From the IMG/VR virus record IMGVR_UViG_3300017773_000014, positions 1 to 49,501 of that record: DNA of 49,501 nucleotides; one strand, given 5' to 3'. Below, in pieces: positions 2-47,642 of the stretch. This DNA is from a virus. The position numbers were made by a program, and so were the translations under genes. The notes under the pieces were generated by a model. That model had not been told where the DNA came from and ran no database searches. It saw nothing but the letters and a program-made list of their open reading frames with translations. Each line of letters starts with the position of its first letter. Positions within the stretch are counted from its first letter, which is position 1.

Positions 2-1213
2 GATTGGATTGAAATTAGGGAACCTAAAGGAGACGTCAACAGGCAATCTCTTAACTTACATCAGTGTGCTGTCGTTGGCGATAAGTTTATGCGAAAGCTT
101 GAACAAGGAAATCCAGAAGCAAGGAATAAGTGGTCCAAACTCATCCAAAAACGTAAAGCAACTGGAGAACCATATATCTTATTTAAAGGGAATACAAACA
201 AAAACAATCCAGAAGCATATAAGAAAAATAGTTTAAAGGTACATATGACTAACATATGTAGTGAAATTGTATTACATACAGATGATTCACACTGTTTTGT
301 TTGCTGTTTGTCATCTGTAAATCTAGATAAATATAATGAATGGAAGAATACGAATTTAATATACGACGCGACTTGGTTCCTGGACGGTGTGCTCGAAGAA
401 TTTATTCAGAGGGCAAAGAATATGAAGGGATTCGAATGCTCTGTTCGCAGTGCGGAAAAAGGCAGGGCTCTTGGACTTGGTGTCCTTGGATGGCACAGCC
501 TGTTGCAAAAAAGCGGAATATCTTTAGAAAGTTTATTAGCACAATTCAAAACGCGAGAGATATTTTCAAAAATAAAAATTGAAACCGAACGTGCTTCAAG
601 AGCTCTTGCAGAAACATATGGTGAGCCTTTGTGGTGTGTGGGTACTGGTATGCGTAATACTCATTTAAGAGCAATAGCACCTACTGTATCTAATAGTAAG
701 TTAGCGGGTAATACATCAGCTGGCATTGAACCATGGGCAGCAAATGTATTTACAGAACAATCAGCTAAAGGAACATTTATAAGAAAAAATAATGAACTTA
801 AAAAAGCACTTAGAAAAATTGGTATTGACTATAAAGAAACTTGGGATAAAATTTTGGAAGATGGTGGATCCGTTCAAGGACTTAAAGAACTCGATGGATG
901 GTTTTACGATGAAAGAGGACGACTAAACCAAGAACAAGGAGAACCAATAAAAAATGTATTTAAAACTTTTAAAGAAATAAATCAACTTGAACTTGTAAGG
1001 CAAGCCGGTATAAGGCAGGATTACATAGATCAATCTGTTTCACTTAACTTGGCATTTCCATCCGAGGCAACCCCTAGATGGATTAATCAGGTGCATGTTG
1101 AAGCATGGAAACGCGGGATTAAAACCCTTTATTATATGAGGACTGAATCCGTGTTGAGAGGAGATATAGCCGCAGCAGCTATGGATCCTAACTGTTTAAG
1201 CTGCGATGGTTAA
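2..1213 (+). CDS. nrdA: Ribonucleotide reductase class I, alpha subunit (C-terminal part; gene starts before the window)
   Basis: The frame is open from base 2, so only the last 403 residues are present. The protein is the catalytic R1 subunit of class I ribonucleotide reductase, which reduces ribonucleoside diphosphates to deoxynucleotides for phage DNA synthesis in the host cytoplasm. Visible marks: the N-x-C-x-E active-site triad as NICSE, with the thiyl cysteine codon at 257-259; a second active-site cysteine in VCCLSSVNL near base 300; the radical-transfer tyrosine pair in TLYYMRT near base 1129; and a C-terminal CLSC pair just before the stop, matching the redox-shuttle cysteines of the family. 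The beta subunit is not in the window and may lie upstream. Bases of roughly 355-520 are clearly richer in G+C than the rest of the gene. Identity is very secure. Confidence 0.96.
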   Translation, partial: DWIEIREPKGDVNRQSLNLHQCAVVGDKFMRKLEQGNPEARNKWSKLIQKRKATGEPYILFKGNTNKNNPEAYKKNSLKVHMTNICSEIVLHTDDSHCFVCCLSSVNLDKYNEWKNTNLIYDATWFLDGVLEEFIQRAKNMKGFECSVRSAEKGRALGLGVLGWHSLLQKSGISLESLLAQFKTREIFSKIKIETERASRALAETYGEPLWCVGTGMRNTHLRAIAPTVSNSKLAGNTSAGIEPWAANVFTEQSAKGTFIRKNNELKKALRKIGIDYKETWDKILEDGGSVQGLKELDGWFYDERGRLNQEQGEPIKNVFKTFKEINQLELVRQAGIRQDYIDQSVSLNLAFPSEATPRWINQVHVEAWKRGIKTLYYMRTESVLRGDIAAAAMDPNCLSCDG

Positions 1214-8000: not shown

Positions 8001-8987
8001 CATAACACCAAAAGCAGGCAATGCAGCTGGGCCCAGTGTTAAAGCAAGTCCAGACGGTAAAAAATTTACCAAAGCATCACCTGTATAATCCCCTAAAGCA
8101 GCTAAGCTGTTTATATTTTCTAAGGCTATAGGTTTAGGTAATTTTTCAGCTCTTTCTTTTTCTAATTTTTCTTTTTTAGATATTAAATTTTTTACTATTT
8201 CGGATGTTTTTCCTAAACCATCAAGTTTATCTTTATAATATGAAACAGCTTCTTCTTTGTTTTTAAATTTAAATCCTCTGAGATCATTTACTGGAAGTCC
8301 AGCTTCAGCTTCTTTTAATTTTTTATTTAATCTTTTTTCTTCAAATCCTCCCTTATCAGGTTTTGCCATATCAAGAAGATACATTGTACCTAAGCCTATA
8401 TCAACAGCGGCATTAGCTAAAGTATTGTTTATTTGATCTATTGAGTTATAAGATCTTTGAAAAGCATTTATAGATGCATTTTTAGGATCTTCTTTTTGTA
8501 ATCTAGCAAGAACTTTCCTTCTTATATCATCTGGCAAGTCATCCATGAACTCTCTTTCTCTAACATCTTGCTCTGCTTGATATAATTGTTGTAAAGTTTG
8601 TTTGTCTTCACTTAAAAATACATCTTCAGGACTAGTAAATTTACCAAAATTACTAACTTTACCTGTTTTTCTGTAAGCTTGATACTCTTCTTTTTCTTCA
8701 GCAGTAAAATACGCTCGATCAAATCTTGCTTTTTTTGCTGATTTCCTTTTTTCTAAAAAGTCATCAAAACTCTCTTTATTCCTAGCTTTATTTAGGTCTT
8801 CAACAGCCGTTCTTTCAAGCTCCTGTTCTTTTAAATTTTGTTGTGCTAATTCATTTTGTCTTACCTGACTTCGAACACTTTTCCTACCATCAATTCTTTG
8901 TGCCCCAGGCTCTCTGGTTAAAAATTCATCAACTTCACTATCTGATATTGTAACTATCGATCCATCAATTAGTTTGAATCTTGGCAT
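2028..8987 (-). CDS. Giant multidomain 'polyvalent' virion-associated protein with zincin and nuclease-like motifs
   Basis: A 2319-residue protein, the largest in the window. Visible in order: a charged N-terminal region; hydrophobic Gly/Ala stretches at about 300-340 and 470-490; an HEYMH zinc-peptidase motif at 749-753 (in AAIHEYMHAAFF), with a likely third ligand in EELFTA near 806; a PD-(12)-E-V-K pattern (D1320, E1333, K1335) typical of PD-(D/E)xK nucleases; a long helical region with hydrophobic segments resembling large polyvalent-protein-associated domains (about 1750-2150); and a C-terminal HEKQH (2259-2263) followed by Trp-Glu at 2310-2311. Phages with such proteins are thought to inject them with the DNA. 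Its place at the end of the tail/internal-protein block, where T7 encodes gp16, fits an ejected protein. No DxDGD polymerase motif was seen, so it is probably not the crAss virion RNA polymerase. Function of each domain is inferred. Confidence 0.85.
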   Translation of the reverse strand: MPRFKLIDGSIVTISDSEVDEFLTREPGAQRIDGRKSVRSQVRQNELAQQNLKEQELERTAVEDLNKARNKESFDDFLEKRKSAKKARFDRAYFTAEEKEEYQAYRKTGKVSNFGKFTSPEDVFLSEDKQTLQQLYQAEQDVREREFMDDLPDDIRRKVLARLQKEDPKNASINAFQRSYNSIDQINNTLANAAVDIGLGTMYLLDMAKPDKGGFEEKRLNKKLKEAEAGLPVNDLRGFKFKNKEEAVSYYKDKLDGLGKTSEIVKNLISKKEKLEKERAEKLPKPIALENINSLAALGDYTGDALVNFLPSGLALTLGPAALPAFGVMGASGKLSQFAMEENEAKEYLPELEKALKDPAYAGNKKEIEAEIERYNKILSTNNLTKLGTSAIYAGSEMLFERFGTLKLLGDLKQAAKLKPPYKEGIGKAILKTPQSSVREGVTEGLTQITQNASDILIEDKNISLLDNVDEAAVQGGLIGTGFGVATTSMMARAHILDVIASKEDKQNIANGLEQIQVLNTELQNPETSKERKVQIKNLINNKTKELSLNEDIISDRFLKLSGEQQKEVFELDRKSREINKQWISIASDPTMSESAKDIMEQDYRTEFDNLQQTKRDIIQSADNRYNEIAKIEGLEDGTIIRGAQVANANLRNVKQYNKGPGWAKKVMGVTGKDLENINNFLESKETSLTLEDKSVITKKEANEIINNKYTINENGQLTGKDGFFSRETRNVVVFTDIAGITNPAAAIHEYMHAAFFANGITKEQFDNVKEDLTELIKNKADGQITQKQADNILAKVASYTQNQSEELFTAISDFTNADVIRESDVDFLSKLRNTLKGAISNLTGVSEANEFKIDTAEDAFNFIKGFNRKVVKGTAIEGRISTEPTKEEGIAASNITNLYNKYGENKRTMVEQSFTKTPSGQETFVPSESEFGQSIGGLLETITKRIYDPIPEDLKKGQSRTEFKNDLVSEAATIIDREYDAEKQDIGKFITNRLNLRANRLEKDLGVKQKIEADVSEAKGVATEEVTPEIQQTKKIAERLGISNNIIDKAKDALEVGILNAENKLEGTEKLSGKKRIAIRDKAVNDIIDGKLYRDIQDEFGRNTDTSKSFTDYLSNNFSALRDAALKHINFQKGTGAAVNWNTTPPTEKEFIDYYLAADQKKSTRSDRKRKLAKAVGLEISEQVRKEYVKTKPEEAKKFQKKTGLVLGSNIMNWGKSQNIKKPRIPLDFTKKIMPVLDAISKANINPKKDGDQPAIDIINKKTENKNLREFALQQYKDNFIKGQRYGGIIVENVWINFLKSQKVNVIDEGAGYNNNMPDIQINLSNGKILVEVKQDSKAIMGQQTVKIKDGKVVAKAGPTQKTIVSYFQGLVDDGTILSFLDEVNKLEGLKENDEKYIKTFPFKTFIKESTREKIGELLKTDKFKAIAAPFKFDPTITKQHYLSKLPKDENDIPYYIQINDIGMLSLNGDLLNLNVPEFDINIITNFRFKASDSKIDEKTGEKIRSYSFSAEYKLDPKSVKDFIKNNKNIKPLSDESIVNKIKASKIVGLNTQFNRILEKVKGVPTREKFSEARAAKLGKKNNPYKFFIPYSAEDYMGLIYPTLGKGKIGDENLQWYKKNILDPYAKGIRDFETAKEGALNNWEVLKKQIKNVPEKLEKEAVDGFSNEDAVRIYLWNKQGTIPSTDGKPDINKKEIAAINRYVKSKPNLVQFANQIKMLTPEGYPEASGTDWLAGTITTDLINYTNTVSRAQYLQQWQDRVDVVYSKDNMNKLKAIYGEDYTIALADMLHRMKTGRNRPSGANKLTNQYLNWVNNSVGTIMFFNTRSALLQTISSVNYLNWSDNNALRVAKTFANQPQFWKDFSEIFNSDFLKSRRGGLKTDVNADEIARTAQTSKNKFKAGLSYLLKKGFIPTQYADSFAISFGGATFYRNRTESLMKEGLSEKAAKEQAFLDFKEITEESQQSSRPDRVSMQQASPLGRLILSFANTPMQYTRLTKKAALDLINGRGDWKTNVSKLAYYGAVQNIIFTALQSALFALAFSDEEDEKEKARYVRIANGTFDTLLRGSGVHGAAVAAAKNIVLETIKQAEGRKEFDKAALEITSLSPPIDSKISKLMSAGRSFKFKQEREKMINMPIYDINNPALMSGAQVLSVGINLPLDRALRKAQNLKLSVDKDTELWQSIALALGYSKWDLNMKDSYKKSKTKTKKPSRVDLVNAPLKKIENLPNGVLGKAHKDGTIQIKKGLSAKKRAEVVKHEKQHVKDMNSGRLNYDQSYVYWEGKKYPRTNGKKIIYNGKALPEGHRSFPWEKSANNVKV

Positions 8988-12010: not shown

Positions 12011-12250
12011 TTAATTACTTGAATTTACAGCTTCAGAATTTATAGCAAATAATTCTGCTTTAGTTGAAGCATTTGTTGACGATAATTTTATTCTGACTTT
12101 CATAAATACACCTTTAACACCAGACACTAATTTTGTAGCATCAGCAACTACAGCACCATTATCTACTTTATATGTTGTTTGTTGTGATACTATTGGTGCG
12201 AAATATTTACCTTCTTTTTCTTGAAACGGAAACGTTATTATTGTACTCAT
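12011..12250 (-). CDS. Small beta-rich protein, unknown
   Basis: A 79-residue protein whose ATG shares one base with the stop of the 1475-residue tail protein gene (TAATG), so its translation is probably coupled. The sequence alternates short polar and hydrophobic stretches, suggesting a beta fold, and has no membrane segment or cysteines. I do not recognise it. Location between tail and internal-virion genes suggests a minor virion component. Confidence 0.65.
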   Translation of the reverse strand: MSTIITFPFQEKEGKYFAPIVSQQTTYKVDNGAVVADATKLVSGVKGVFMKVRIKLSSTNASTKAELFAINSEAVNSSN

Positions 12251-15200
12251 TATGCGCTTTGTGTTATGTTTATTGTGTGTGAACTTACACCTGTAACTCT
12301 TGTATTATACTTTTCAATTACAACAGTACCAGTTCTTGAACTTCCTGTTGTATTTGCAGCAACATTAATTGTAAAAGGATAATTACCACCATATATATTA
12401 ACGTCATCAGGATCAATTATAACAACACCTGAAGTTGTAGGTGTTATAGCAGTACCTTGTGTTGTAGCCGCTGCTAAATATATCCAATTTTGATTAGGTG
12501 TTGCTTTTATAGCTATATTAGCTTTTTCACCAGCTACATCACCTATAACTAAATTAGCATTTGTTGCTGTGTTATTAAATGTATGACTTCCTGCAATAGT
12601 GCCCATAACTGCTGTTACCTCACCTGAACCCGTTATAGTAGCAGTAGCTGTTGTGTTTTCATATATTTTAGGCAATATAATTTGAGCTTGATAATAATCT
12701 TGAGTATATGCAGTTGTAAAACTTGTTATTTCAGTTACAGCTGTATTTTCTACATTATAAGAAACAGCAAAAGAACTTGGTAACATAACTTTTGTTGTGC
12801 CTGTAACATTCATTTTAATAGTAGCAGTACGCTGACTGTCAGCAACATATGGACTTATTGTATAAGCATTACCAACGGATGTTCCCGAAGGTGTAGTTAG
12901 TACACCTGTTGAAGGTGTAGCCCAATTTAAAGTGTACAATGTAGTAGCACTTCCTGAAAAAGTCATATTTTCATTTGTAATACTAGAAGGCATTGTAATT
13001 GGCACATTATAAGTTACTTGGTTTGTTTGTCTCGTATAGGGTAATGATGTTGTAATAATATTTCCGCCCATACCACTATGATTACTACAATAATAATATA
13101 GAGGGCTAGTTGTTGATGCTGTTACAACAATTTGAGTTTGTGCTCCAGAGCTACCTGGTGTACCTGTTGTTGTAACACCAGTTGTATATTCAGAGCCACT
13201 TGCATGTGTACCATTTGATGTAGTACTAAATTTTAATGGATGGCCACTGTTAGAGCTATCACTTTGATCAAATATATAAGTTTTGCCTATAGTAAGTGCA
13301 ATACTGTCCTGTCTTATTCCATCTAGTGTATATTTATTACCTGCACTATAAGCTACAACTTTAACAGGTATTGTTTCTGTACCACTTATAGCCCCTGTAT
13401 TTAAGGAAGTTAATGAACCCGTACCTACTGTAATATTATAAGGATTTATAAAATGTGTATTTGTAGGGGAAACTATTATATTTTGTGATGTAGCACCTGA
13501 TGCCAATTCTACAAGAGTTGGACTAACCGATGCATCTGAAACAGAATCACCTACACTTATACTAAGAAGTGCCGCAGTAAATGCAAGAGAAGCTCCTGTA
13601 CCACCAACAGCTAATTCAATAGTTTGATTTGATACACCAACAGTATAACTTATATTAAATACTAACTTACCATCAACAATATTAGTTGGATTTGTTATAT
13701 TAACAGTTTCGGAACCAGAATAAGTTAAAGTAACATCAGATACTGAATTAAATTTAAAATCAGCATTTTTAGCATCTACAAATACAGCCCATGTAACTGT
13801 TTCTCCTTGTTTAGCTCTTGCTACTCTTTCTCCTGTTATTAAAGTATTAGCTCCTACATTTGTATTAGCTCTTGTAATTTGTAATGAAATATCAAAACAA
13901 TTTGTATTAGTAGGAACTATTCCAATATCTGTTAAATCAGTTCTTAAAAAATCTAATTCCCAACCAGATGTTCCTTCATAGCTTATATTATTAAATGTTT
14001 TTATGGAAGAAGGACTATCATTTAATATAGGCTCTATATAAGAATCAGCAGAAGCAGCACCATAAAAACTATTTCTATTTACGTTTTCAGCATTGTGTTC
14101 ATATAGTTTACCAGAATTAAATGTATAATATTTATTATTTAAAGTTAAACCGTTTTCTTGTTTAAAAGATTTAAAACTAGGCCAACCTTTAGCATTTTCA
14201 TCAAATGATACTGTTAAATAACCATCACTTGCGGTAGCTAAATTTGTATCAGTTTTGCTATCATAACATTCACCTATAATTGTTAAATTATATAATCCAT
14301 GATATTCATCATATGACCCTATAATTTCTTTAGATGTACTTAATGCATCTCTAAAAAAATCACCCATTCCTGAACTAGATATTTCAACAATACCATTTTG
14401 TGATAATCTTAATACAGCTCCTCTATTTTTATCTGTAAAATATTTTGCATAACCATAAGATGCAAAAGATTGAGGATTTTTAGATATACCAAAATCACCA
14501 GCATATGGGGCTATAGTTCCTAAAAACTGTGTATTACTAGTTACAGGTAATGCGCCACCTTCAGCAGAATATATAAAATCTTTATTTATAGGTGATCTAG
14601 ATAATTTATCTTCTTGGAAAATAACTATTTGAGTATCATCTGCATAAAGCTTTTGTATAGATCCGTCTTGTGGATCTAATGATACAGTCAATCCACCTTC
14701 AGCTTCATTAAATTGATTTATATAATTAATATTTGTTCTTGAATTAAATAAACCACTAGAATGTATAAGAGTATTAAATCTTCTTTCTTCAGCAAAATTT
14801 TCTTTCACAACATAAGCTCTAACACCTACATCAAAAGCTTTTTCATTAAACCCGGCTCTTAATCTATTGACTTCTATATGTGTGCCGGACGTAAAATTTA
14901 ATAAATAGCAGTTAAAAAATCTTACATCAATAGTAGCACCTGCATCAGATAAAACAGATATTAAACCACCCGTAGAAGTTTCAAAGAAAATATCTAAATC
15001 AGATTCTACTGGTTCTGTTTCATAAACTGAAACACCTGAAGATATAGAGGTGCCACCGTCAGTTACAGTTGGAACATTAGCAGTGCCTGCTGGATTATTA
15101 ATTGATTGTACTTTTGTTAAACTAGAAGTAGTTTGATTAGCACCATTTAAAATTTTAGGATATACAGAAACATCACAAGGAGATATTGTATTACTCGTAC

Positions 15201-16677
15201 TTGGTGGTATTACAGCGGTTTGATCTCTAGGTATTTTATTTATACTATCTCCTAATCTTGCAATAACATTTGCACCCGTAAGAACAGAAATCCAATTATA
15301 ATATTCTTGTTCTCTTTGTTTTACAACTATTTTATATGAATAAGCCCAATCAAGAGCTTTTAATGTTGCTATAGCAGCTGATGAAAAAGAAACTCTTAAT
15401 GCATTAAAAACACTAGTACTATTTACAGCTCCAGAAGCTGCATCTATAAACACTGTATCATTTCCTGTAGAAGATAATATTACAGGAGATTGTCTACCAA
15501 ATTTATCTGCTAATACAATGCCAACTTGATAAGTACGTCTAGATTTTACAGACATAGCTGTATCTAATGTAGCATACCTAGCAGAAGTTTCTCCTGTTCT
15601 TGAAACACTAAATGAAATATCTGGTATATCAAAATTTTGTAAAAAATTACCATATATGAGCCTACCTCCACCTAGTTCTTGGGATTTAGCTTTTTTAGGC
15701 ACTGCATCTGATACTCTTGTTAATTGATCTCCTGGTAATGTTTTAAAAGGATCTTGTGACTTATAGAAAAAATTTACTGAAGATTCTGTAGTAACTGTTT
15801 TTTCTTCAACAACGTATAAAGTTGATGATCCTGTTTCTTTATATATTAATTCTACACCCGTTATATCGTAACCTGTTGGTACTGATACTGCTAATTGCAC
15901 AGATTTTACAGCATTTACAAATGTTTCAATTTCTCCAAAATCAGATATATTACTAGTATTAATAGTATCTGTATTACCTAATCTTGAAAAACATATAGGT
16001 GTAAAAGGAGCTAATACACTATATTCTCCATCATCAAATTGATAACGATATGAAAATCTTACAAGTTTGTTTTCTAAAAAATTAGATGTAATTACTGTAC
16101 CAGTTTCATCTGTATTAGAAAGTGCTAATATATTAGCAGCTTCATAAGGTGCAAATTTAGCAACAGATATAATATTATCTATATTTGAAGCTAAATTATA
16201 ATGTCCCGGTTCGTTTCTTGCTGTATCTACATTTATTTTTCTAGGAGGATTTCTATCGTCTGTAAAAAATAATAATGTATCTACAAGATTAACACCTGTA
16301 ATTGGAAATTCAGTATGAAAATTTAAAGAATTAGCATTAACTAAAACAATAGATTTATTAGCTTTTTGATCGTATTCAATTATTTGATGTTGTTTTGAAC
16401 TACTATTTGAATGATCATAACTATTGTTATTAGTAATAAAGTAATATATTTTTTCATTACCATTATCACGCAAACTTCCAATTGTTTTAGCATTACTTAT
16501 ACCGGTAGTTACTACTTCTTTATTACCTAAAATATTTTCAACTGCACCCATATCAGAACCTTCTGATTTACTTACGTTGATATTTAAAGCCTCACGGTAT
16601 TCACCAGGTTGAACGAGTCTATCGTCTTTGTCTCGATTCATTCGGCTTGCATTGAATAGCCTTTTAATTTCTGGCAT
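12250..16677 (-). CDS. Tail stabilisation / nozzle-type protein with cupredoxin-like and BACON-like C-terminal domains
   Basis: A 1475-residue tail protein. The N-terminus has the pattern GEYREALNINVSKSEGS, close to the start of podoviral tail hub proteins (T7 gp12 / P22 gp10 type, called stabilisation protein in crAss-like phages), and the first ~850 residues look like a beta-propeller rich in Tyr, Asn and Asp. From about 900 it becomes Thr/Ser-rich Ig-like beta modules. Residues about 1130-1210 form a cupredoxin-like unit with His1146 in GHPLKFS and Cys1197, His1200, Met1203 in YYYCSNHSGMGG, a full type-1 copper ligand set. The last ~40 residues (GSSRTGTVVIEKY ... HTINITQSA) match the terminal strands of BACON carbohydrate-binding domains. 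It follows the two tail-ring genes, as in crAss-like phages. Confidence 0.82.
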   Translation of the reverse strand: MPEIKRLFNASRMNRDKDDRLVQPGEYREALNINVSKSEGSDMGAVENILGNKEVVTTGISNAKTIGSLRDNGNEKIYYFITNNNSYDHSNSSSKQHQIIEYDQKANKSIVLVNANSLNFHTEFPITGVNLVDTLLFFTDDRNPPRKINVDTARNEPGHYNLASNIDNIISVAKFAPYEAANILALSNTDETGTVITSNFLENKLVRFSYRYQFDDGEYSVLAPFTPICFSRLGNTDTINTSNISDFGEIETFVNAVKSVQLAVSVPTGYDITGVELIYKETGSSTLYVVEEKTVTTESSVNFFYKSQDPFKTLPGDQLTRVSDAVPKKAKSQELGGGRLIYGNFLQNFDIPDISFSVSRTGETSARYATLDTAMSVKSRRTYQVGIVLADKFGRQSPVILSSTGNDTVFIDAASGAVNSTSVFNALRVSFSSAAIATLKALDWAYSYKIVVKQREQEYYNWISVLTGANVIARLGDSINKIPRDQTAVIPPSTSNTISPCDVSVYPKILNGANQTTSSLTKVQSINNPAGTANVPTVTDGGTSISSGVSVYETEPVESDLDIFFETSTGGLISVLSDAGATIDVRFFNCYLLNFTSGTHIEVNRLRAGFNEKAFDVGVRAYVVKENFAEERRFNTLIHSSGLFNSRTNINYINQFNEAEGGLTVSLDPQDGSIQKLYADDTQIVIFQEDKLSRSPINKDFIYSAEGGALPVTSNTQFLGTIAPYAGDFGISKNPQSFASYGYAKYFTDKNRGAVLRLSQNGIVEISSSGMGDFFRDALSTSKEIIGSYDEYHGLYNLTIIGECYDSKTDTNLATASDGYLTVSFDENAKGWPSFKSFKQENGLTLNNKYYTFNSGKLYEHNAENVNRNSFYGAASADSYIEPILNDSPSSIKTFNNISYEGTSGWELDFLRTDLTDIGIVPTNTNCFDISLQITRANTNVGANTLITGERVARAKQGETVTWAVFVDAKNADFKFNSVSDVTLTYSGSETVNITNPTNIVDGKLVFNISYTVGVSNQTIELAVGGTGASLAFTAALLSISVGDSVSDASVSPTLVELASGATSQNIIVSPTNTHFINPYNITVGTGSLTSLNTGAISGTETIPVKVVAYSAGNKYTLDGIRQDSIALTIGKTYIFDQSDSSNSGHPLKFSTTSNGTHASGSEYTTGVTTTGTPGSSGAQTQIVVTASTTSPLYYYCSNHSGMGGNIITTSLPYTRQTNQVTYNVPITMPSSITNENMTFSGSATTLYTLNWATPSTGVLTTPSGTSVGNAYTISPYVADSQRTATIKMNVTGTTKVMLPSSFAVSYNVENTAVTEITSFTTAYTQDYYQAQIILPKIYENTTATATITGSGEVTAVMGTIAGSHTFNNTATNANLVIGDVAGEKANIAIKATPNQNWIYLAAATTQGTAITPTTSGVVIIDPDDVNIYGGNYPFTINVAANTTGSSRTGTVVIEKYNTRVTGVSSHTINITQSA

Positions 16678-19250: not shown

Positions 19251-20783
19251 TTAAGCGTCTTTAAATAATACAAAGTTATTTGCACCTTGTACAATTAAAC
19301 ATCTTTCACTTAAATAGTGCATTCTCATTTCATCGATTGGAGAACTTGATGGTCCACCTACAGATCCAGTAACCCAAGACTTCATTTTTCTGTTTTCAGT
19401 CTCAGATGCTCTGTATCGTATGTGTAAGAAAGGTCTTTTAATGTTTGAACCAAGTACTTGGTCATAAACAGTAGAAGTACCAGCAGGTACTAATACACCT
19501 TCAATGTCACCAAAACCTCCTCTTGTAGAGAAGTCATTTAAGTATTTCCAGTCAGTTTTATAAAAGTCATAAGACCCTCTTCTGTAACCTGTAAATCCTA
19601 AATTTAATGCCATATCCTCGCTGTTGTTAAATACTCCAAAAGATGTACCTCCAGAATATCCTCCGTTTTGTTGTGCAAGAATGTCATCAATTTCTAAAGA
19701 AAGATTTCTATCTAAGAAAAGCATGTTTTCTTCAATAGCACCTTGCTTATCCAGTTGAGTTAAAACAGCGTCAAAGTCTGTTAAAGCTCCACCACCAGCT
19801 GCTTGTGCACCAAATCCTGAATATACGTTACCTCTTGCTTCAATAGCTTCGAAGAAACCTTCAGTACCTTTAGCAGTAGCTGTTAATGCTGAATCATAGA
19901 AATTTAAAGTAGCACCAGTATTTAATTGCTTCACACCTTCAACCATTGACATTTCAAGATAATCTTCAAAACGTAATCTGTTTTCGTGTTCAGATTTTAA
20001 ATACCATAAATATCCGCTAGCTCCATTTTCAGAAGTAACTTCAATCCATCCTATTTGTGCAGTGTCAGAACCACTTATAGAATAGTGCTCTTTTAAAATT
20101 ACAGGACTATTCTTAAATGTAGCATAGCTAGGATCTAATTTTTCAGTAAAGTTAGAAGACCCTTTTGCAAACTCAGATCCATATGCTAAAGCAGTAAATC
20201 TTTGAGCGTTTGTAATTGCTGGTACACCAGTAAGTGATTTTACTTGGAAATACTGTCCGCTAACATTAGTAACAATAGCTTTGATCATTGCTCCAGTACC
20301 ACCAATTGCTGATGTTGCACTAGTTTGAGCTTGAATCATTACTGTTTGTCCTTTTCTAAAGTTAACAGCTGTAGTTCCTTGAGTAGTTACACCAAGGCTA
20401 GAAGGCTGTGCTGTTGGTACAAAAAAGTTTCCAACTTCTCCTCCTGTTGCTGCTGCAGTTGCTGTACCTGGAGTTGTTCCAGATGTTGGCATTGTGGCAG
20501 CATCACTTAAATAAACGATATTTGCATATCTTGTGTGCAATCTACCTTGCTCAGTCCAAATAATTTGGTCTGAAGTAGATGGCATCTCCGCAGATACCAT
20601 ACGTAAAAAAGAACCGATAGATCTGTTTCCATATCTTTCAACTTCTTGTTCGTATACATCTGGTAAAAATTGTTGAGCCCACTGATTAAAACTTGAATCA
20701 GTGAAATCGATATAATTCCCGGAATATAATGCCTTAGTTTGTGTTGGTTGTAAGGCAGCGGGAACACCACTTGTAAAAGCCAT
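19251..20783 (-). CDS. Major capsid protein (HK97-fold, crAss-like type)
   Basis: A 510-residue protein between the predicted scaffold and tail-ring genes. It begins with residues that include NYIDFTDSSFNQWAQQFLPD and EQEVERYGNRSIGSFLRM, resembling the N-arm and spine helix of crAss-like capsid proteins, and contains a Thr/Ser/Gly-rich insertion (about 95-200), which may be a surface domain. Later segments such as SGYLWYLKSEHENRLRFED and FDAVLTQLDKQGAIEENML fit the P and A domains. The gene is less AT-rich than its neighbours, as expected for the most highly expressed late gene, and is followed by its own hairpin. Identification rests on order and sequence style; mass spectrometry or a fold prediction would settle it. 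Confidence 0.82.
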   Translation of the reverse strand: MAFTSGVPAALQPTQTKALYSGNYIDFTDSSFNQWAQQFLPDVYEQEVERYGNRSIGSFLRMVSAEMPSTSDQIIWTEQGRLHTRYANIVYLSDAATMPTSGTTPGTATAAATGGEVGNFFVPTAQPSSLGVTTQGTTAVNFRKGQTVMIQAQTSATSAIGGTGAMIKAIVTNVSGQYFQVKSLTGVPAITNAQRFTALAYGSEFAKGSSNFTEKLDPSYATFKNSPVILKEHYSISGSDTAQIGWIEVTSENGASGYLWYLKSEHENRLRFEDYLEMSMVEGVKQLNTGATLNFYDSALTATAKGTEGFFEAIEARGNVYSGFGAQAAGGGALTDFDAVLTQLDKQGAIEENMLFLDRNLSLEIDDILAQQNGGYSGGTSFGVFNNSEDMALNLGFTGYRRGSYDFYKTDWKYLNDFSTRGGFGDIEGVLVPAGTSTVYDQVLGSNIKRPFLHIRYRASETENRKMKSWVTGSVGGPSSSPIDEMRMHYLSERCLIVQGANNFVLFKDA

Positions 20784-22082: not shown

Positions 22083-24461
22083 TTATCTGGGTTCAAACCT
22101 AGACATTTCAATTCCTCCAAGAACATCATTACCTTTTGATTCAAATGATTTTTTAGGTTTATTTATTTTAGGAGGTCCTGATATATCTTTTGATTTGTCA
22201 GACATTTCTTTTTGAGCATCAATTTCCATTTGTTTTAATTTTACATTTAAATCAAATTCAAATTGCATCAATTCTTTTTTAGTTTGTGCTTCAATTTCTA
22301 ATTTTTTAATATCCATTTCACTTTCTGCTGTAGATATTTGTATTGTAGAATCTGCTTTTATTTGCTGTGCTTGTGCTTTAGCTTGTTCTATTTGTACTTG
22401 TGCTTGGCCTTGTGCTTCAGCTTGTGCTACACTAGCAGCTTGTGCTTGTGATTGATCAGCTTGTTGTTTTTTAATTCTTCTAAATTTTAACAACTGATTA
22501 GCAAGTTTAATATTTCTAACTTGTCTAATATCTATTGCATCTTCAAGATGTATACTTCCTTGAGTAAGAGCCATTTGTATATTTGTTTCTAATAAAGATT
22601 TTTCTTCTTCATCAGGTTCTAAATCTAAAAAAATACCAAAATCATGTAAATTTAAATTTTGCATTTCTTTTAAAGAACCCACAGAAAAATGCCCTATTGA
22701 AGAAATAAATGCATCTCTTTTGGGATGGTATTCTAATATATCTTTAAATCTAAGAGCAATACAATTTGCTAATAATTTTGTCATATATAAACTAGAATCT
22801 AATATATGTCTTGTAGCAACATTACTATTTGCAGCGGCCATTTTTTGTACACCTACAAGAGCTTTAGGATCCGGATCCGAACCATCTCTTGCTTCATTTA
22901 ATCCGGTTATATCTCTAATCATTTGAAGATATTGATTATAAGCACCTATTAAAAGTTGTACTTGATTACCACCACCACCGGGAAGTTCTTGAATAGGAAC
23001 TTTACCAGGATTAGGATCACCTTCAGTAGTTAATGATCTACCAATTATAGACCCTGTTTGGAAATACATATTTAATGCTTCTTGAGGATTATAACTTGTA
23101 CCATTACCAAGATCTATTTCGGCTAATCCATCAGCATCTAAATATACTCCTGAAGGAGTCATTTTTTGAATAGCTTGTTGTAGTTTTAAATGAGTAAGCT
23201 GTATTAAATCAGCATATGGAGTCATTTTTGAAACTAAAGAGTTTATTTTACCTTTGTATATTCTTGGGGCTGCAACAACATAATTCATTAATACTTGATT
23301 AGTATTTGAATTAGGACGTATCATATTGGTTGCTTTTTTCCATCTTAACAATTGTGAAGCACCTAATATATATGAACCCTCATATAATACCTCTTGAGCT
23401 TGAGCTACTCTTTTAAATCTAGTTCTTTTATCTTTAGGAGGGTTAAAGGAATCGTCTTTTTTAATTATTTTTTCAGCACCTGAAGAAACTTCCTTTACTT
23501 TATAAACATTGTTTTCCCATGTTTTCCAATTAAAATATAATACATTAACAACATTATTATCTCCACTTTCTTCCCTATTTGAATAATTCATATTATAGGT
23601 TGACCAGCTGCCGCTTTTTTTAGAAAGCTCGTTTAAATACTCATCATTTAATTCAGGAAAATCTTTTTTTAACTGATTAATTTTTATTGTTTTAACTTCA
23701 CCAAAATAATAACAATCTTTAAAATAAGGATCTTCTGTATATGACCAAACTAAATTTGCAGGATCTACATAATCTAATTTTATTCCGTCTGTATTATTAA
23801 AAGAATGCTTCATGGCACCAATACCTAATACAGTAAGATCATAATCAACTCTATTTTTTAAATATTCGTATTCATTAGTTTGAAAAATATTATCTATAGC
23901 TTGTTCTTCAGCAATTTCAATACCTTGTTTATAATTTAATTGCATGTATAAATTTAATTCTTCTGAATTAGAAGGCAATTTTTCTTTTTCTACATTTCTT
24001 ACATTTACACCAAGTTGCATTTCAACAGCATCTAACATAGCTGCTGCATTCATATCTCTTTGTATGTCTTCTACATAAGTTGTTCTTTTATCTGTAGAAA
24101 GTTGATCTTCTCCAACTGCTCTAATAGTATATAATCTATCTTGCATACCATTGACTACTATGTCAACAAATTTAGGTATAATAGGTACCGGCTTCCAATC
24201 TAAATTTAAATAAGATAAATCACCATTTATAGCAAATTCATCTTTATACTTTTTAATAGATTGATCACCTCTAGCGTATAATCTTAACCTATGAAACTCA
24301 TCTCTTGTAGAATAATATCTGCCTTGTGAACCATTACCTTTATTAAACCATTCTTGTTCAATAGCCCTTGCAACTTTATTACCATACTCTATAGATTTTT
24401 TCTCTGCGTCCGATACTGCTTGACTAGGAAAGTCATATCCATTCGACTTATATTTTGCCAT
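22083..24461 (-). CDS. Portal protein (crAss-like type)
   Basis: A 792-residue protein immediately downstream of terL (2-base gap). The portal forms the dodecameric ring at one capsid vertex through which DNA is packaged. N-terminal motifs such as FHRLRLYARGDQS, LSYLNLDWKPVPIIPKFVD and IVVNGMQDRL are those I associate with crAss-like portals. Residues ~200-260 are the clip/stem-like region (IDNIFQTNEYEYLKNRVDYD), and IRDITGLNEARDGSDPDPKAL is a conserved portal segment. The C-terminal 110 residues form a long Gln/Ala/Lys coiled coil, which may be the barrel helix. The start ATG is preceded by an A-rich leader without Shine-Dalgarno. Confidence 0.87.
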   Translation of the reverse strand: MAKYKSNGYDFPSQAVSDAEKKSIEYGNKVARAIEQEWFNKGNGSQGRYYSTRDEFHRLRLYARGDQSIKKYKDEFAINGDLSYLNLDWKPVPIIPKFVDIVVNGMQDRLYTIRAVGEDQLSTDKRTTYVEDIQRDMNAAAMLDAVEMQLGVNVRNVEKEKLPSNSEELNLYMQLNYKQGIEIAEEQAIDNIFQTNEYEYLKNRVDYDLTVLGIGAMKHSFNNTDGIKLDYVDPANLVWSYTEDPYFKDCYYFGEVKTIKINQLKKDFPELNDEYLNELSKKSGSWSTYNMNYSNREESGDNNVVNVLYFNWKTWENNVYKVKEVSSGAEKIIKKDDSFNPPKDKRTRFKRVAQAQEVLYEGSYILGASQLLRWKKATNMIRPNSNTNQVLMNYVVAAPRIYKGKINSLVSKMTPYADLIQLTHLKLQQAIQKMTPSGVYLDADGLAEIDLGNGTSYNPQEALNMYFQTGSIIGRSLTTEGDPNPGKVPIQELPGGGGNQVQLLIGAYNQYLQMIRDITGLNEARDGSDPDPKALVGVQKMAAANSNVATRHILDSSLYMTKLLANCIALRFKDILEYHPKRDAFISSIGHFSVGSLKEMQNLNLHDFGIFLDLEPDEEEKSLLETNIQMALTQGSIHLEDAIDIRQVRNIKLANQLLKFRRIKKQQADQSQAQAASVAQAEAQGQAQVQIEQAKAQAQQIKADSTIQISTAESEMDIKKLEIEAQTKKELMQFEFDLNVKLKQMEIDAQKEMSDKSKDISGPPKINKPKKSFESKGNDVLGGIEMSRFEPR

Positions 24462-24463
24462 AC

Positions 24464-26695
24464 TTATTTTATTAATTCGCTTTGTGATCCACTATTCTTA
24501 TATTTAGAAAATCCAAACCCTATGCTAATTTTTGTTTTTCTTTGTGTTGGTCTATATAAATTTTTTCTGCAAGCCATTATTGCTAGCCCACTACTTATAG
24601 AAGCATCATGTGCTGTTCTTTTTGAAATATCAAATTTTGCCCAATCTTCTAAAGTTCTTTGAAAATACATATTGCCATACTCTTCATTAATCTTTCCTAC
24701 ATATTCTTCTATGTACGACTCAATAGCGGCTGCGTGAGCCTGCCTTATATCTTCAGAACTATTTGGTATTCCACCTAATTCTGCTTCTGTTTTTGATAAA
24801 TTATTTTTTAATCGGTCGGGGCGGTTCATTGAAAATCCCCTATAACCTCTTCTTTTAAAATGATACAATAATCTTGGTTTATTATTTTCCGCTAATATTG
24901 GCATACCATAAAATATACAAGCCATTAAAACATCTTCAAAAAATATTTCTGCTGTTTGGGGTCGAGCAATATATTCTAAAAAAAATTTTGTATTAGGAAC
25001 ATTTTCGGTCATTGAAAAAGTTGTTAATCCGTGTAATGCTCCATTTGAACCTTGACCTCCAACAGTACCCGATATATCATAAGAATCGCACCCAAATGCA
25101 CCTAAATGATTATTTCCAGAATATTTTATACCATTTTTTATTATTATATTATTTCTTAAATTTTTATCTGGTAACCAAGAAACAAAAAATCTTCCATTTT
25201 TTGAAGGAGTCCAAATAACTTCTGTATCTTTTACTCCGTTTCTCCATGAAAAAGAACCTTGCACCACATATCCTTTCATATTCATGTCTTCATTAAAATC
25301 TATTTGTTCATATATTTTAGTAAGATTAAATAAAGAATTTAAAGTTTCATCTCTAAAAGCATGTTTTTCTGAACGCGGAAATTGTCTATAATATTCATTT
25401 AAACTATCTGGATCATTTTTTAAACCCTCAACTTCATTTTCCCAATGCTTAATAACTCCCGTGTGTATTTTTTCACCATCAATTCCTTCAACCGCCTTCT
25501 GTGGGCTGTCGAAGACAGGATAACCATACTTGTCAATAAATCCTTCGTAGCCCCATTCCATAGGTAAGAACAAAGCATATAATCCGCTTGAAGTCTGACC
25601 ATTGCGATTTCTTTTTGTAACATCTGAGTCATAATAAAGTTTTTTAAAATTATCACCACCTTTGTTTAAAGAATTAGATGTTGAACCCATCATGCATTTA
25701 CCAACTATCTTCGACCCGAGACGGAGACACGTTTTTGTAACCCTCCAATTATTGAGGATGTTGTCCGGCCTCTCCCATTTCCCCGATTCATCATGGACGA
25801 GGAGTTGTAGTTTCTCTCCATCGTAGGAATTATCACCCGTGTTCTTCCAGTCGATCGTTGTGTCCAATCCTGTTGGTGCATCCTCCTCGGTCCCCGCGGC
25901 TTTAATCGTATTTCTTGTAAGCCTTCTTGACGGAACCTTATAGGATAATTCTGTCTTTGGACGTTCCATCCCATCCTGTATAGGTTTGAAAAAGAATGGG
26001 TAATTGGTAGATATGGGTACCACCTTGTCTGTAAACATCTTTTTAGCATCAGATTCCGTTTTAGATAAAATTCCAAATCGTGAATCTTTAGTTGTCGTTG
26101 CAATATTGACCACTTCTGAACTCGCCATGAAGCTAAACCCAGACCGTCTATTCTTGAGGTAGCACATTCCGTATGATCTATAATCCAATTTGCACGCCTC
26201 CCAGAAATAAAAAAATAATCTATTGGCATGTCTAAAGTCGGGGGATCCCACATCGATTTTAGTCCAGTTGAGGTAGATGTAGTGTGACCCTGTAATGAAA
26301 GTCGGTACTCCGTTGCACATGAACCAATAACCATCATTACGATAATTAAACTCAGCATCAATGTACCTATAGTATTTTTCTTTAAGAATTTCTTTATGTT
26401 GCTTAAAATCATATATGGTTTTTATTCTATTTAATGATTCTGGTCTTTTCCGTTTAATAAAAACTTGATCTTCTTTTTTAATTTCAGATCCATTTATTTC
26501 TTTAGGGGTTTTAGGTATTGCTATCTTTAGACCTTGTATTTCATATATATCACCTATAGTACCATTTTTACTTATTACAATACAATCAAGTTCCTCATTA
26601 TATCCAGATTTAAATTTTTTATGTCTGTTTTTATTTTTTATTTTTTTATCTTCTAAATGGCTTGTATGAATTGAATATAAATTTTGTTTATACAT
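24464..26695 (-). CDS. terL: Terminase large subunit (packaging ATPase and nuclease)
   Basis: A 743-residue motor protein that cuts and translocates phage DNA into the prohead. The ATPase half contains a P-loop-like KNRRSGFSFMASSE at 181-194, where the usual GKT/GKS is GFS; a Walker B LQLLVHDE at 297-303 ending in Asp-Glu; and a coupling motif MMGSTSNSLNKGG near 335-347. The nuclease half has an acidic residue in FGCDSYDISG and a FLEYIARPQTAEIFFED segment, then FYGMPILAENN, all typical of large terminases in this group. The ATG overlaps the stop of the preceding gene by one base. Bases of about 25690-26350 (residues ~115-335) are much richer in G+C than the flanks. Confidence 0.93.
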   Translation of the reverse strand: MYKQNLYSIHTSHLEDKKIKNKNRHKKFKSGYNEELDCIVISKNGTIGDIYEIQGLKIAIPKTPKEINGSEIKKEDQVFIKRKRPESLNRIKTIYDFKQHKEILKEKYYRYIDAEFNYRNDGYWFMCNGVPTFITGSHYIYLNWTKIDVGSPDFRHANRLFFYFWEACKLDYRSYGMCYLKNRRSGFSFMASSEVVNIATTTKDSRFGILSKTESDAKKMFTDKVVPISTNYPFFFKPIQDGMERPKTELSYKVPSRRLTRNTIKAAGTEEDAPTGLDTTIDWKNTGDNSYDGEKLQLLVHDESGKWERPDNILNNWRVTKTCLRLGSKIVGKCMMGSTSNSLNKGGDNFKKLYYDSDVTKRNRNGQTSSGLYALFLPMEWGYEGFIDKYGYPVFDSPQKAVEGIDGEKIHTGVIKHWENEVEGLKNDPDSLNEYYRQFPRSEKHAFRDETLNSLFNLTKIYEQIDFNEDMNMKGYVVQGSFSWRNGVKDTEVIWTPSKNGRFFVSWLPDKNLRNNIIIKNGIKYSGNNHLGAFGCDSYDISGTVGGQGSNGALHGLTTFSMTENVPNTKFFLEYIARPQTAEIFFEDVLMACIFYGMPILAENNKPRLLYHFKRRGYRGFSMNRPDRLKNNLSKTEAELGGIPNSSEDIRQAHAAAIESYIEEYVGKINEEYGNMYFQRTLEDWAKFDISKRTAHDASISSGLAIMACRKNLYRPTQRKTKISIGFGFSKYKNSGSQSELIK

Positions 26696-41956: not shown

Positions 41957-42403
41957 TTATTTTTGTTTGTTAAATTTTTTAATAGCTTGGCTATATACTT
42001 TATCTATATAGCTTTTTCTTTTTAATATTATATTTCTTTTTGCTGATTCAGGTATTAATTCTTTGCCTATTAACATTTTATATATTCTATTAATAAGCAT
42101 TTTACCTTTGTAACTTACTTTATATTTATTGTGATCTCCAATTCTTCCTTTCCCAATATGAATTTTATTAATCCAATCGTTTTTTTGAAGTCTATAAAAC
42201 CTTGTTTTATCCCATGAATAATATATTGTACCGTCTTTAAAGTCATTTATTGTAAAATAATTTATTGGGTCTAAATAAAATAGTAATTCTAAATCTGAAA
42301 TAGAAAGTTTATTATTTTTACACGCCCATCTTGAGATTAATCTATAGTTTTTTAAAAAGTCTACTTTAATTTCGCCTCTTTCTATAAAATCAGAGCGGTC
42401 CAT
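41957..42403 (-). CDS. Winged-helix-like protein
   Basis: A 148-residue basic protein. Residues ~25-115 (RWACKNNKLSISDLELLFYL, then FTINDFKDG, WDKTRFYRLQKNDWI, HNKYKVSYKGKMLINRIYKM) have the helix-helix-helix-beta spacing of winged-helix DNA-binding domains, and similar proteins are found in phages of marine Bacteroidota as far as I recall. The C-terminus is a basic helix. The ATG shares one base with the groES stop (42403), so it is probably in the same operon as the chaperonin pair. It might be a late regulator; no operator was identified. Confidence 0.62.
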   Translation of the reverse strand: MDRSDFIERGEIKVDFLKNYRLISRWACKNNKLSISDLELLFYLDPINYFTINDFKDGTIYYSWDKTRFYRLQKNDWINKIHIGKGRIGDHNKYKVSYKGKMLINRIYKMLIGKELIPESAKRNIILKRKSYIDKVYSQAIKKFNKQK

Positions 42404-42657
42404 TATAATACAGCTATTACATCTTTTATTGTAATTACTTTATAAGTAACATCTTGATAATCAATACTGTGTCCCGCAATGCGGTCAAATATTATTTGTG
42501 CGTTTTTTTGTATAACTTCAGGTCCAGAGGAAATAACAATGCCTTTTCTATATCTTGTATCATCTCTATGCTTTTCGGCAAGTTCAAGCCCTCCATCTGT
42601 TTTTACAATATTTTCTAGTATTTCTTCTACTATTATATAATTTCCAATTGCTTTCAT
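42403..42657 (-). CDS. groES: GroES-type co-chaperonin
   Basis: An 84-residue protein, slightly shorter than the usual ~95. It starts MKAIGNYIIVEEI and has the mobile loop with GGLEL in place of the GGIVL tripeptide that contacts GroEL. Then come RYRKGIVISSG, matching the RGEVLAVG strand, AQIIFDRIAGHSID, and YKVITIKDVIAVL at the C-terminus, all in GroES order. The ATG overlaps the groEL stop by four bases (ATGA arrangement; groEL 42654-44234, this gene starting at 42657). It should cap a phage or host GroEL cavity. Confidence 0.86.
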   Translation of the reverse strand: MKAIGNYIIVEEILENIVKTDGGLELAEKHRDDTRYRKGIVISSGPEVIQKNAQIIFDRIAGHSIDYQDVTYKVITIKDVIAVL

Positions 42658-44234
42658 TCTTCTCTAACATTTGAAATTACACAATCAGTTGATAATATAG
42701 TAGTTGAAACAGATATTGCATTTTGAAGTGCTGTTTTAGTTACTAAAAGTGGGTCTATAATGCCTGTTTTAATAAGCTTCTTTTTACAACCACAAGTAAC
42801 ATCTATTCCTTCTCCCCAGACCGATAAAGTTTTACTGTGGGGTTCTATTCCGGCATTTGTGAGTATTTTGGTATATGGTGCTGTAAGTGCATCTTTTAAT
42901 ATATCTACACCTTTTAATTCACCGCTATTTAGTATCATTTCCCAATCAGCGATTGCTGCATGAGCAAGAGCAGTACCACCGCCTGGTAATATACCCTCTT
43001 TTTTAGCAGCTCTTACAGCGTGAATTGCATCATCTACTCTGTCTTGTTTTTCTTTAAGTTCCACTTCTGTAGCAGCACCCACTAAAATTACAGAAACACC
43101 ACCGCTTAAAAGGGCAATTCTATCTGTTAAGTGTTTACTCATTACATTGTGTTCTTCTTTTTCAAGAGCAGTTTTTAAATACTCGATACGTTCTTGTACT
43201 TCTTTACTTTTTTCTGAAACCACAAGTACTGTACCTTCTTTATCTGAAACGGCTTTATCTGCCGATCCTAACATGTCAGGGGTGATTGCATCAATCGAAT
43301 CACCCAGGCTCTCATCAAATACCTTAGCCCCGACAAGCAATGCTAGATCCTCCAATACATCTTTTCTTTTGAGCCCAAAGCTTGGAGGGTCGATTACATT
43401 GACCTTAATATTGCCCTTTACTTTATTCATAGCAAGCGCTGTTAAAGGCTGCGTTTCTAAAGGTGCAATAAGGAGTACTGCTCTATTGGACTTAATAGCA
43501 AACTCCAGGATGTCTTGAATTTTTCTGACATTAGGAATATCAGAAGCACTCATGAAGATGAGAGGATTTTCTAATTCGCAAATTTCTTTTTCTTTATTAG
43601 TATAAAAGTGAGGAGCTTTGCAGGTACTTCCAATCTTAGTACCGTTTACGTTTTCTGTATAAGTGTCGTTATTAGGGGATGTTTCCATTGTAACGATACC
43701 ATTCTCGCCAGCACTTTGGAAAGCGTTGGCAATCATGTTACCTAGTTCAATGTCATTATTTGCTGAAATAACTGAAACATCATGTAACATTTTACTATCT
43801 ACAGATATTGCTTTATTAGTTATATGTTTTATAACTTCTTTAGCAAATTTATTAATACCTGATTTAATATCTCTAAAAGAAAATTCTTCTCCTTTTAGTT
43901 TATAGTAAGAATCTATAATAGCTTTTGTAAGTACTATAGATGTTGTTGTACCATCCCCTGCTACTGAAGCGGTTTTTTGTGCCGCTTGTTTCATCATAGA
44001 AACTGCAAGATTTTCAATAGGATCTTGAAGAAGTATACTATTAGCAACAGTAACCCCATCTTTCGTAATATGTGGATCCCCATAATCATTCTCTATGATA
44101 ACAGTTCTACCACTAGCTCCTAGTGTTGATCCAACAGCATCAGCTATTTTATTTATTCCACTAAATAATTTTTCTTTTGCACTCTTATCAAAGTGCATTT
44201 TCTTTACTAGCTTTGTTTTACCGAATTGTGACAT
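42654..44234 (-). CDS. groEL: Phage-encoded GroEL-type chaperonin
   Basis: A 526-residue chaperonin that folds proteins in an ATP-driven double-ring cage. Conserved features seen: ITKDGVTVAN (D59), VAGDGTTTS (D94), the apical segments ENPLIFMSASDIPNV and VIDPPSFGLKRKDVLED, LSGGVSVILVGAATEVELKE, and VDDAIHAVRAAKKEG with the catalytic Asp at 402, then GGGTAL. Departures: the TLGPKGR loop contacting ATP is TLGASGR (37-43), so the usual Pro-Lys is Ala-Ser. There is a ~7-residue N-terminal extension. The usual Gly-Gly-Met C-terminal tail is missing, and the protein ends SNVREE. The gene lies 5' of groES with overlap, in reverse of the standard bacterial order. Bases ~43150-43780 are richer in G+C than the ends. 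Confidence 0.95.
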   Translation of the reverse strand: MSQFGKTKLVKKMHFDKSAKEKLFSGINKIADAVGSTLGASGRTVIIENDYGDPHITKDGVTVANSILLQDPIENLAVSMMKQAAQKTASVAGDGTTTSIVLTKAIIDSYYKLKGEEFSFRDIKSGINKFAKEVIKHITNKAISVDSKMLHDVSVISANNDIELGNMIANAFQSAGENGIVTMETSPNNDTYTENVNGTKIGSTCKAPHFYTNKEKEICELENPLIFMSASDIPNVRKIQDILEFAIKSNRAVLLIAPLETQPLTALAMNKVKGNIKVNVIDPPSFGLKRKDVLEDLALLVGAKVFDESLGDSIDAITPDMLGSADKAVSDKEGTVLVVSEKSKEVQERIEYLKTALEKEEHNVMSKHLTDRIALLSGGVSVILVGAATEVELKEKQDRVDDAIHAVRAAKKEGILPGGGTALAHAAIADWEMILNSGELKGVDILKDALTAPYTKILTNAGIEPHSKTLSVWGEGIDVTCGCKKKLIKTGIIDPLLVTKTALQNAISVSTTILSTDCVISNVREE

Positions 44235-44254
44235 TTAATTTAATTTAATTTAAT
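44235..44254. repeat. Four tandem TTAAT units abutting the groEL start
   Basis: Four exact 5-base TTAAT units directly precede (on the - strand) the groEL ATG, reading ATTAA x4 then ATG in the coding direction. It serves as an A/T-rich, SD-less leader and is a candidate for slippage. Confidence 0.7.
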
Positions 44255-44262
44255 TTTTTATT

Positions 44263-47249: not shown

Positions 47250-47376
47250 CTGGTGTGTTTGTTTGTGCTAGATGTATTTCAATCATAGCAGCAGTTAGTT
47301 TGTCCACAGCCTTACGTATCTCTTTTAGCTCGTTTCGGATACCATTGGCTTTAATGTGGGTATATTCTTTACTCAT
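47206..47376 (-). CDS. 56-residue helical protein overlapping the lipoprotein gene
   Basis: This ORF starts with ATG at 47376, sharing one base with the upstream gene's stop (TAATG), and ends inside the lipoprotein gene. The protein has a helical core (GIRNELKEIRKAVDKLTAAM) and a short cysteine-containing tail (KLCTCNSD). It has no membrane segment, so it is not a classical inner spanin. TAATG coupling and its position support expression. Confidence 0.55.
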   Translation of the reverse strand: MSKEYTHIKANGIRNELKEIRKAVDKLTAAMIEIHLAQTNTPDETTNTKLCTCNSD

Positions 47377-47642
47377 TATATTTGATTGTTTATTTTGTTA
47401 TCTAAATAAGTGCATGCCGCCGTCTTAATAAAGCCGGGTACCCATTTTGGATCCCTGCATATAGAAGGTCTGCTGTCATATATAGAGCACCGGGCTTTCT
47501 TATTATCGTAATTATTACAGTAGCCGTTAGCTTTTTCTTTTAATCCAGCCTTCTCTGCAGCTGCTTTTATTTTGCTGGGCAACATACTTAATTTACAGCA
47601 AGCACCGCAGTGCCAACATTGCCATCTTAGCTTGTCCAACAT
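47376..47642 (-). CDS. Cysteine-cluster protein of YkgJ type
   Basis: An 88-residue protein with WQCWHCGACCKL at 8-19 (CxxCxxCC) and a later CNNYDNKKARCSIYDSRPSI (42-61, C at 42 and 52) then CR and CTYLD, matching the YkgJ family thought to bind zinc or iron-sulfur. The family's terminal R-P-x-x-C-R is present as SRPSICRD. It is the first gene of the - strand module, adjacent to the divergent control region, and so may be expressed early. Its biochemical role in phages is unknown. Confidence 0.8.
   Translation of the reverse strand: MLDKLRWQCWHCGACCKLSMLPSKIKAAAEKAGLKEKANGYCNNYDNKKARCSIYDSRPSICRDPKWVPGFIKTAACTYLDNKINNQI

Follow-up and report, generated by a model that had tools for sequence, protein, structure and literature searches.

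A phage-encoded GroEL with an altered nucleotide-binding loop, paired with its own GroES

The groEL–groES locus

The IMG/VR record IMGVR_UViG_3300017773_000014 is a 49.5-kb sequence classed as viral, with genes for terminase and portal, and its positions 1 to 49,501 were analysed here as a whole (the window). On the minus strand, the window encodes a group I chaperonin subunit of 526 amino acids without a C-terminal tail (groEL, 42654-44234) and, directly behind it, a co-chaperonin of 84 amino acids without a roof hairpin (groES, 42403-42657). Both frames are intact and overlap by 4 nucleotides, the stop codon of groEL and the start codon of groES sharing ATGA. A first-pass annotation had proposed a phage-encoded GroEL with its own GroES at this place, groEL coming before groES. 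Consistently, the genes are adjacent and overlapping, both have Pfam and PHROG matches and the record is viral; the coordinates, the strand and the gene order were correct as well.

GroEL matches the Pfam family Cpn60 (PF00118, E-value 2.8e-54) across profile positions 1-488 of 490, in keeping with a full-length equatorial, intermediate and apical architecture, and it matches phrog_5725 with an E-value of 4e-127. Its AlphaFold2 model has a mean predicted local distance difference test score (pLDDT) of 83.7 and a VIA Z of about 42 to GroEL structures, with 514 residues aligned to 8wuw. GroES is recognised by PF00166 (1.8e-8, over the cut-off) and by the PHROG groES family (1e-8). The GroES model (pLDDT 85) is a Cpn10 beta-barrel with low confidence at residues 11-30, the place of the mobile loop, and Foldseek matches it to Cpn10s (1wnr, E-value 3.5e-5) and to T4 gp31 (1g31). 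The ratio of nonsynonymous to synonymous substitution rates (dN/dS) of groEL against close relatives is 0.11-0.16, indicating purifying selection, under which groES also stands. A pseudogene or a sequencing error is ruled out by the open frames and by dN/dS values well under 1.

All genes in a block running from 47642 to 1465 lie on the minus strand, in the order small basic proteins, DUF6321, groEL, groES, a 148-amino-acid protein, fibre-like and glycine-rich proteins, terminase, portal, putative capsid or virion proteins and a 1475-amino-acid protein. The chaperonin genes are upstream of the tail, terminase, portal and capsid genes, and their earlier placement in a late virion operon is a fair description of gene position. 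A gap of 28 nucleotides with an A/T-rich leader (44235-44262) separates groEL from the preceding gene and shows no indication of a promoter specific to the pair. A Bacteroidota-type promoter, TTTG-N17-21-TANNTTTG, was also tried and rejected: the window holds 5 matches versus 3.7 expected by chance, all on the plus strand and none near groEL. Comparisons were made with the 80 nearest IMG/VR relatives, found by six peptides other than the loop described below. In 74 of these 80, groEL, groES and the gene of the 148-amino-acid protein (41957-42403, minus strand) form a conserved three-gene cassette.

ATP site, salt bridges and folding cage

In an alignment to E. coli GroEL, TLGASG at residues 37-42 of the window GroEL replaces TLGPKG, and the codons that put GASG (residues 39-42) in place of the G-P-K-G of the nucleotide loop occupy 44109-44120 on the minus strand. 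TLGASG is present in 79 of the 80 relatives, and the remaining one (L014) has TLGPSG. Because these relatives were picked by other peptides and groEL is under purifying selection, GASG is not a chance change. The altered loop that the first-pass annotation described is thereby confirmed, and so are the catalytic marks that it listed, D59, D94 and D402, which align to D52, D87 and D398 of E. coli.

Every ATP-site residue checked is present in the window GroEL (in E. coli numbering, T30, L31, G32, K51, D52, DGTTT at 87-91, D398, G415 and D495). In a family set of 199 members, which was partly gathered via the GASG pattern itself, so that the unbiased loop figure is the 79 of 80, T30, L31, G32, K51, D52, D87, G88, T89, T90 and D398 are identical to E. 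coli in 199/199, and T91 and D495 are kept in 198/199. The family changes are on the adenine side and at the loop edge, where P33 becomes A, K34 becomes S, N479 becomes D in half of the members and A480 mostly becomes V; P33, N479 and A480, the positions beside the adenine, are all replaced in the window. Because the clade retains every ATP-hydrolysis residue that was checked, a catalytically dead ATPase is unlikely on sequence grounds. It had been suggested that changed ATP contacts alter the folding cycle. An altered cycle is plausible, but GASG would probably not abolish ATP contacts as such, the residues listed above being kept. The altered part would rather be the allosteric wiring, with unchanged ATP chemistry, and the loss of Lys34 may be more telling than any change in ATP contact. 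As far as the compared proteins go, a canonical GPKG or GPRG loop is a hallmark of cellular GroELs and no requirement for the group I family, since other viral GroELs vary at this place.

ATP binding draws Lys34 to Glu483 in E. coli GroEL (PMC3053311), and the R58-E209 bridge forms with ATP (PMC10723157). The D83-K327 and R197-E386 bridges hold the taut state, and the R452-E461 bridge steadies the ring interface (PMC5941174). Among 154 family representatives, K34-E483 and R58-E209 are each found in 0, D83-K327 in 3, R452-E461 in 15 and R197-E386 in 43, whereas each of the five is found in 22 of 23 host representatives; D155-R395 is kept in 154/154 of the family. All five are broken in the window, where the corresponding residues are S/G for K34-E483, S/K for D83-K327, N/E for R58-E209, S/E for R197-E386 and T/E for R452-E461. 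In the alignment, Gly482 (42789-42791) stands at Glu483, the partner of Lys34 in the ATP-induced bridge, and Ser90 (43965-43967) and Ser203 (43626-43628), also encoded on the minus strand, stand at Asp83 and Arg197, with loss of the two taut-state bridges. When 82 host-conserved charged positions were compared, the family had kept the ten bridge positions less often than the others (Mann-Whitney p=0.003, relatedness uncorrected). The engineered relaxed D83A/R197A mutant of E. coli GroEL (PDB 4KI8, 4WGL) lacks the same two side chains as the window. However, it is a single-purpose mutant, whereas the phage GroEL differs at additional positions and comes with a private GroES.

The cage is altered at both ends. 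The roof beta-hairpin of E. coli GroES (residues 46-54) is a gap in 192 of 192 aligned family GroES, and in the window it is missing at GroES residues 46-47 (42517-42522, minus strand). This does not exclude membership of the Cpn10 family, because T4 gp31, which has no roof loops and helps to fold the 56-kDa gp23 (PMC6318259), also lacks the roof. Like gp31, the window GroES would be a phage-encoded GroES fold without a roof for a large capsid protein; gp31 has a longer mobile loop and works with the host GroEL, whereas here the phage supplies its own. At the opposite end, GroEL stops at SNVREE, and a C-terminal tail is absent in all 80 relatives with a full frame. The lack of a Gly-Gly-Met tail was rightly predicted. 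However, a missing Gly-Gly-Met motif alone is unremarkable and was rejected as a viral mark, because many Bacteroidota GroELs lack it too; those sampled often have a tail of 10-20 residues without the motif, and what sets the clade apart is the total absence of the tail. Apical contact residues are also shifted, with L234 replaced by Q in 194/199 and Y203 by H in 170/199 of the family, and Y199 by C in the window, as would be expected from co-evolution of GroEL and GroES into a private pair. On the cage wall, the window has N, M and K in place of the acidic residues D359, D361 and E363.

Distribution of the GASG clade and relation to known chaperonins

The pair is not unique, as at least 599 relatives exist. 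Nor is a matched GroES uncommon in this clade, as the first-pass annotation had supposed for viruses; it is the rule, because 80/80 of the nearest relatives carry groES directly behind groEL. The adjacent groES fits a group I chaperonin, which lacks a built-in lid and depends on a separate co-chaperonin. A maximum-likelihood tree places all GASG GroELs except that of Cellulophaga phage phi38:1 in one clade (support 100/100), which adjoins a group of phages with the same groEL-groES order (Elemovirus and MW202828), and host GroELs lie on a separate side of the tree. A33 and S34 are nearly invariant, although the GASG subclades are only about 50% identical to one another.

The loop could have been widespread in host GroELs, a point that the earlier annotation had raised against its own proposal. 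A scan of 84,980 species genomes with the codon pattern AV..TLGASG[RK].V gave 42 matches, comprising 17 loci without GroEL, about 21 GASG GroELs, 2 motifs in a broken frame and 2 GARG loops. Nearly all of the GASG GroELs show the groEL-groES arrangement of the viruses, and most lie on small contigs of metagenome-assembled genomes (MAGs); the examined MAGs contain a separate, ordinary GPKG GroEL as well, tailed where the gene is complete. Of 395 genomes from the phylum of one Flavobacteriaceae MAG, 295 have GP-x-G and only one has GASG, namely this MAG itself, in which the gene is on a small contig (C64) with viral gene order. Host origin and a host-wide loop are ruled out by the scan, the phylum sample and the tree.

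Other viral GroELs have GPNG, GPSG, GARG or GYRG loops. On viral contigs L208-L327, a separate clade has TLGPNG with groES before groEL in 35/42, and in another clade, with GARG or GPRG, groEL precedes groES. A very divergent Cpn60 of 506 amino acids (L371; G008, C109) with TLGPRG and an extremely long branch comes from a Maricaulis MAG with an additional, ordinary GroEL.

GroEL and GroES in marine phages have already been published, and the clade-specific anatomy is the new part; the GASG clade is a large, known yet little-studied group of viral chaperonins. A survey of virioplankton chaperonins by Marine et al. 2017 (ISME J) is said, going by its title, to name viral GroELs as prevalent in the sea. 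In the accessible part of Nishimura et al. 2017 (PMC5332604), GroEL is reported in 36/78 environmental genomes of marine Flavobacteriaceae phages ('group 2'), which include phi38:1 and have a structural module akin to that of phi38:1; that part does not describe the loop, the roof or the bridges. The GASG-bearing GroEL of phi38:1 has been detected as a protein both in infected cells and in preparations of free virions (PMC13288928). It shares TLGASG with the window but is only about 37% identical and falls, with a long branch, outside the GASG clade; in phi38:1, groES is upstream of groEL with a gene between them and encodes a longer GroES. Podoviridae sp. ctfjg026 (MW202828) and Elemovirus (Flavobacterium phages vB_FspP_elemo) are kin by terminase (62% and 46%, respectively). 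Both have groEL followed immediately by groES, and their GroES also lacks the roof hairpin. However, their loops are GPRG and GYRG, respectively, they form a sister clade to the GASG clade, and GroEL is 40% identical.

Proposed function, alternatives and neighbouring genes

The pair probably constitutes a working private group I chaperonin with a dedicated GroES, loosened allostery and a roomier cage, which folds phage proteins independently of the host GroEL/ES. The two proteins would be made with the late (virion) gene block. GroEL rings would bind non-native phage protein, and ATP binding would recruit the phage GroES. The client would then fold in a cage whose GroES lid lacks roof hairpins and whose GroEL floor lacks C-terminal tails, and because both are missing the cage may be slightly larger or partly open. 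Because K34-E483, D83-K327, R58-E209, R197-E386 and R452-E461 are lost, the taut state and the ring interface are presumably loosened, and the cycle would be gated with less cooperativity than in E. coli GroEL. The clients are expected to be phage proteins, most likely large virion proteins, with no reliance on the host GroEL/ES. A candidate is the putative capsid or virion protein of 510 amino acids (19251-20783, minus strand), whose 55.4 kDa may be compared with the 56 kDa of gp23. A more specific picture is put forward tentatively: a naturally relaxed chaperonin in a widespread marine phage lineage, in which catalysis is intact, the gating bridges (including K34-E483, removed by GASG) are dismantled or charge-reversed, and a private roofless GroES closes a tail-less, less acidic cage as a dedicated chamber for large virion proteins.

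Several observations weigh against this interpretation. The fixation of GASG in the 199-member set is circular, because members were partly found by the GASG pattern. In the window alone, 6/10 bridge positions are lost versus 37/82 host-conserved charged positions (p=0.25, not significant); an excess of bridge loss was rejected on this basis and holds for the family-level comparison only. The alignment length varies near E483, and R197-E386 is formally possible in 43/154 family members. In 67/154, the charges of D83-K327 are reversed, with K/R at 83 and D/E at 327 (L017, L010 and L332, for example), and other subclades may thus retain a reversed version of this bridge.

It is doubtful that the pair is an ordinary viral GroEL/ES with host-like function, in which the loop and bridge differences are neutral drift and the benefit is extra folding capacity, for example in the cold. 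Viral GroELs are widely divergent and have several loops, the clade member L014, which sits inside the GASG clade, is read as a reversion to GPSG, and the bridge losses of the window alone are not significant. Consistent with a role in the cold, most Southern Ocean viruses in one study are reported to carry a GroEL/GroES analogue, for which such a role has been proposed (PMC8407431). However, drift does not readily explain why A33 and S34 stay nearly invariant across subclades, why K34 and E483 are lost together, or why dN/dS is low. Furthermore, the viral GPNG group retains D83-K327 in 38/42; therefore neither viral life as such nor divergence alone removes this bridge.

An EL/OBP-like mode, in which rings separate and aggregation prevention or client holding outweighs folding in a closed cage, is rather improbable. 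The ring-interface bridge R452-E461 is missing from the window, as it is from 139/154 family members, D83-K327 and R197-E386 are not conserved in the phage EL chaperonin either (PMC7185714), and single rings have been described for the EL and OBP chaperonins (PMC5934643). These are phage-encoded too, but they are distant in sequence and need no co-chaperonin, whereas here GroES is always co-encoded and under purifying selection. The window GroEL does not belong to the EL/OBP type; its nearest relatives are group I GroELs, its similarity to the EL chaperonin (E-value 5.5e-29) being far weaker than that to bacterial GroEL (3.5e-110). That the GroEL is dead or degenerate and serves only to sequester host factors, or that it is a host gene included in the contig, is scarcely credible: the nucleotide loop and the adenine side are changed, but the phosphate-contacting and catalytic residues are intact, the frame is open with low dN/dS, the record has terminase and portal, and host GroELs form a separate clade.

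If the pair is a private chaperonin with loosened allostery, it bears on the old question of which salt bridges of GroEL are needed for folding and which merely regulate the cycle, mostly probed with single engineered mutants. The clade is a large natural set that is under purifying selection and has its own GroES; its catalytic core does not vary, but the regulatory bridges are gone or reversed. It offers test material for allostery and for how the GroES roof and GroEL tail affect cage volume, and it also bears on why some phages carry a complete folding machine.

The 148-amino-acid protein of the cassette has no match in Pfam or PDB, and its PHROG match is to a family of unknown function. 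Its gene has a dN/dS of about 0.10-0.14, and the product is perhaps a DNA-binding regulator. The terminase (24464-26695) and the portal (22083-24461) are encoded on the minus strand. Because the terminase has matches only among Bacteroidota phages (Flavobacterium elemo, Cellulophaga, Tenacibaculum, Maribacter) and in the uncultured podovirus MW202828 (62%), the host is probably a marine bacterium of the Bacteroidota. In MW202828, a relative of the 148-amino-acid protein is annotated as 'repressor' and lies on the opposite strand. The 1475-amino-acid protein (12250-16677, minus strand) combines a crAss-phage muzzle C-terminal domain (PF25729, 2.4e-8) with fibre-like parts and may point to kinship with crAss-like phages. 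Elsewhere in the window are a 2319-amino-acid protein of no clear family (2028-8987, minus strand), the C-terminal part of a ribonucleotide reductase large subunit (89-1213, plus strand) truncated at the left contig end, and a small CxxCxxCC putative zinc/iron-chelating protein (47376-47642, minus strand; PF03692, 4e-9).
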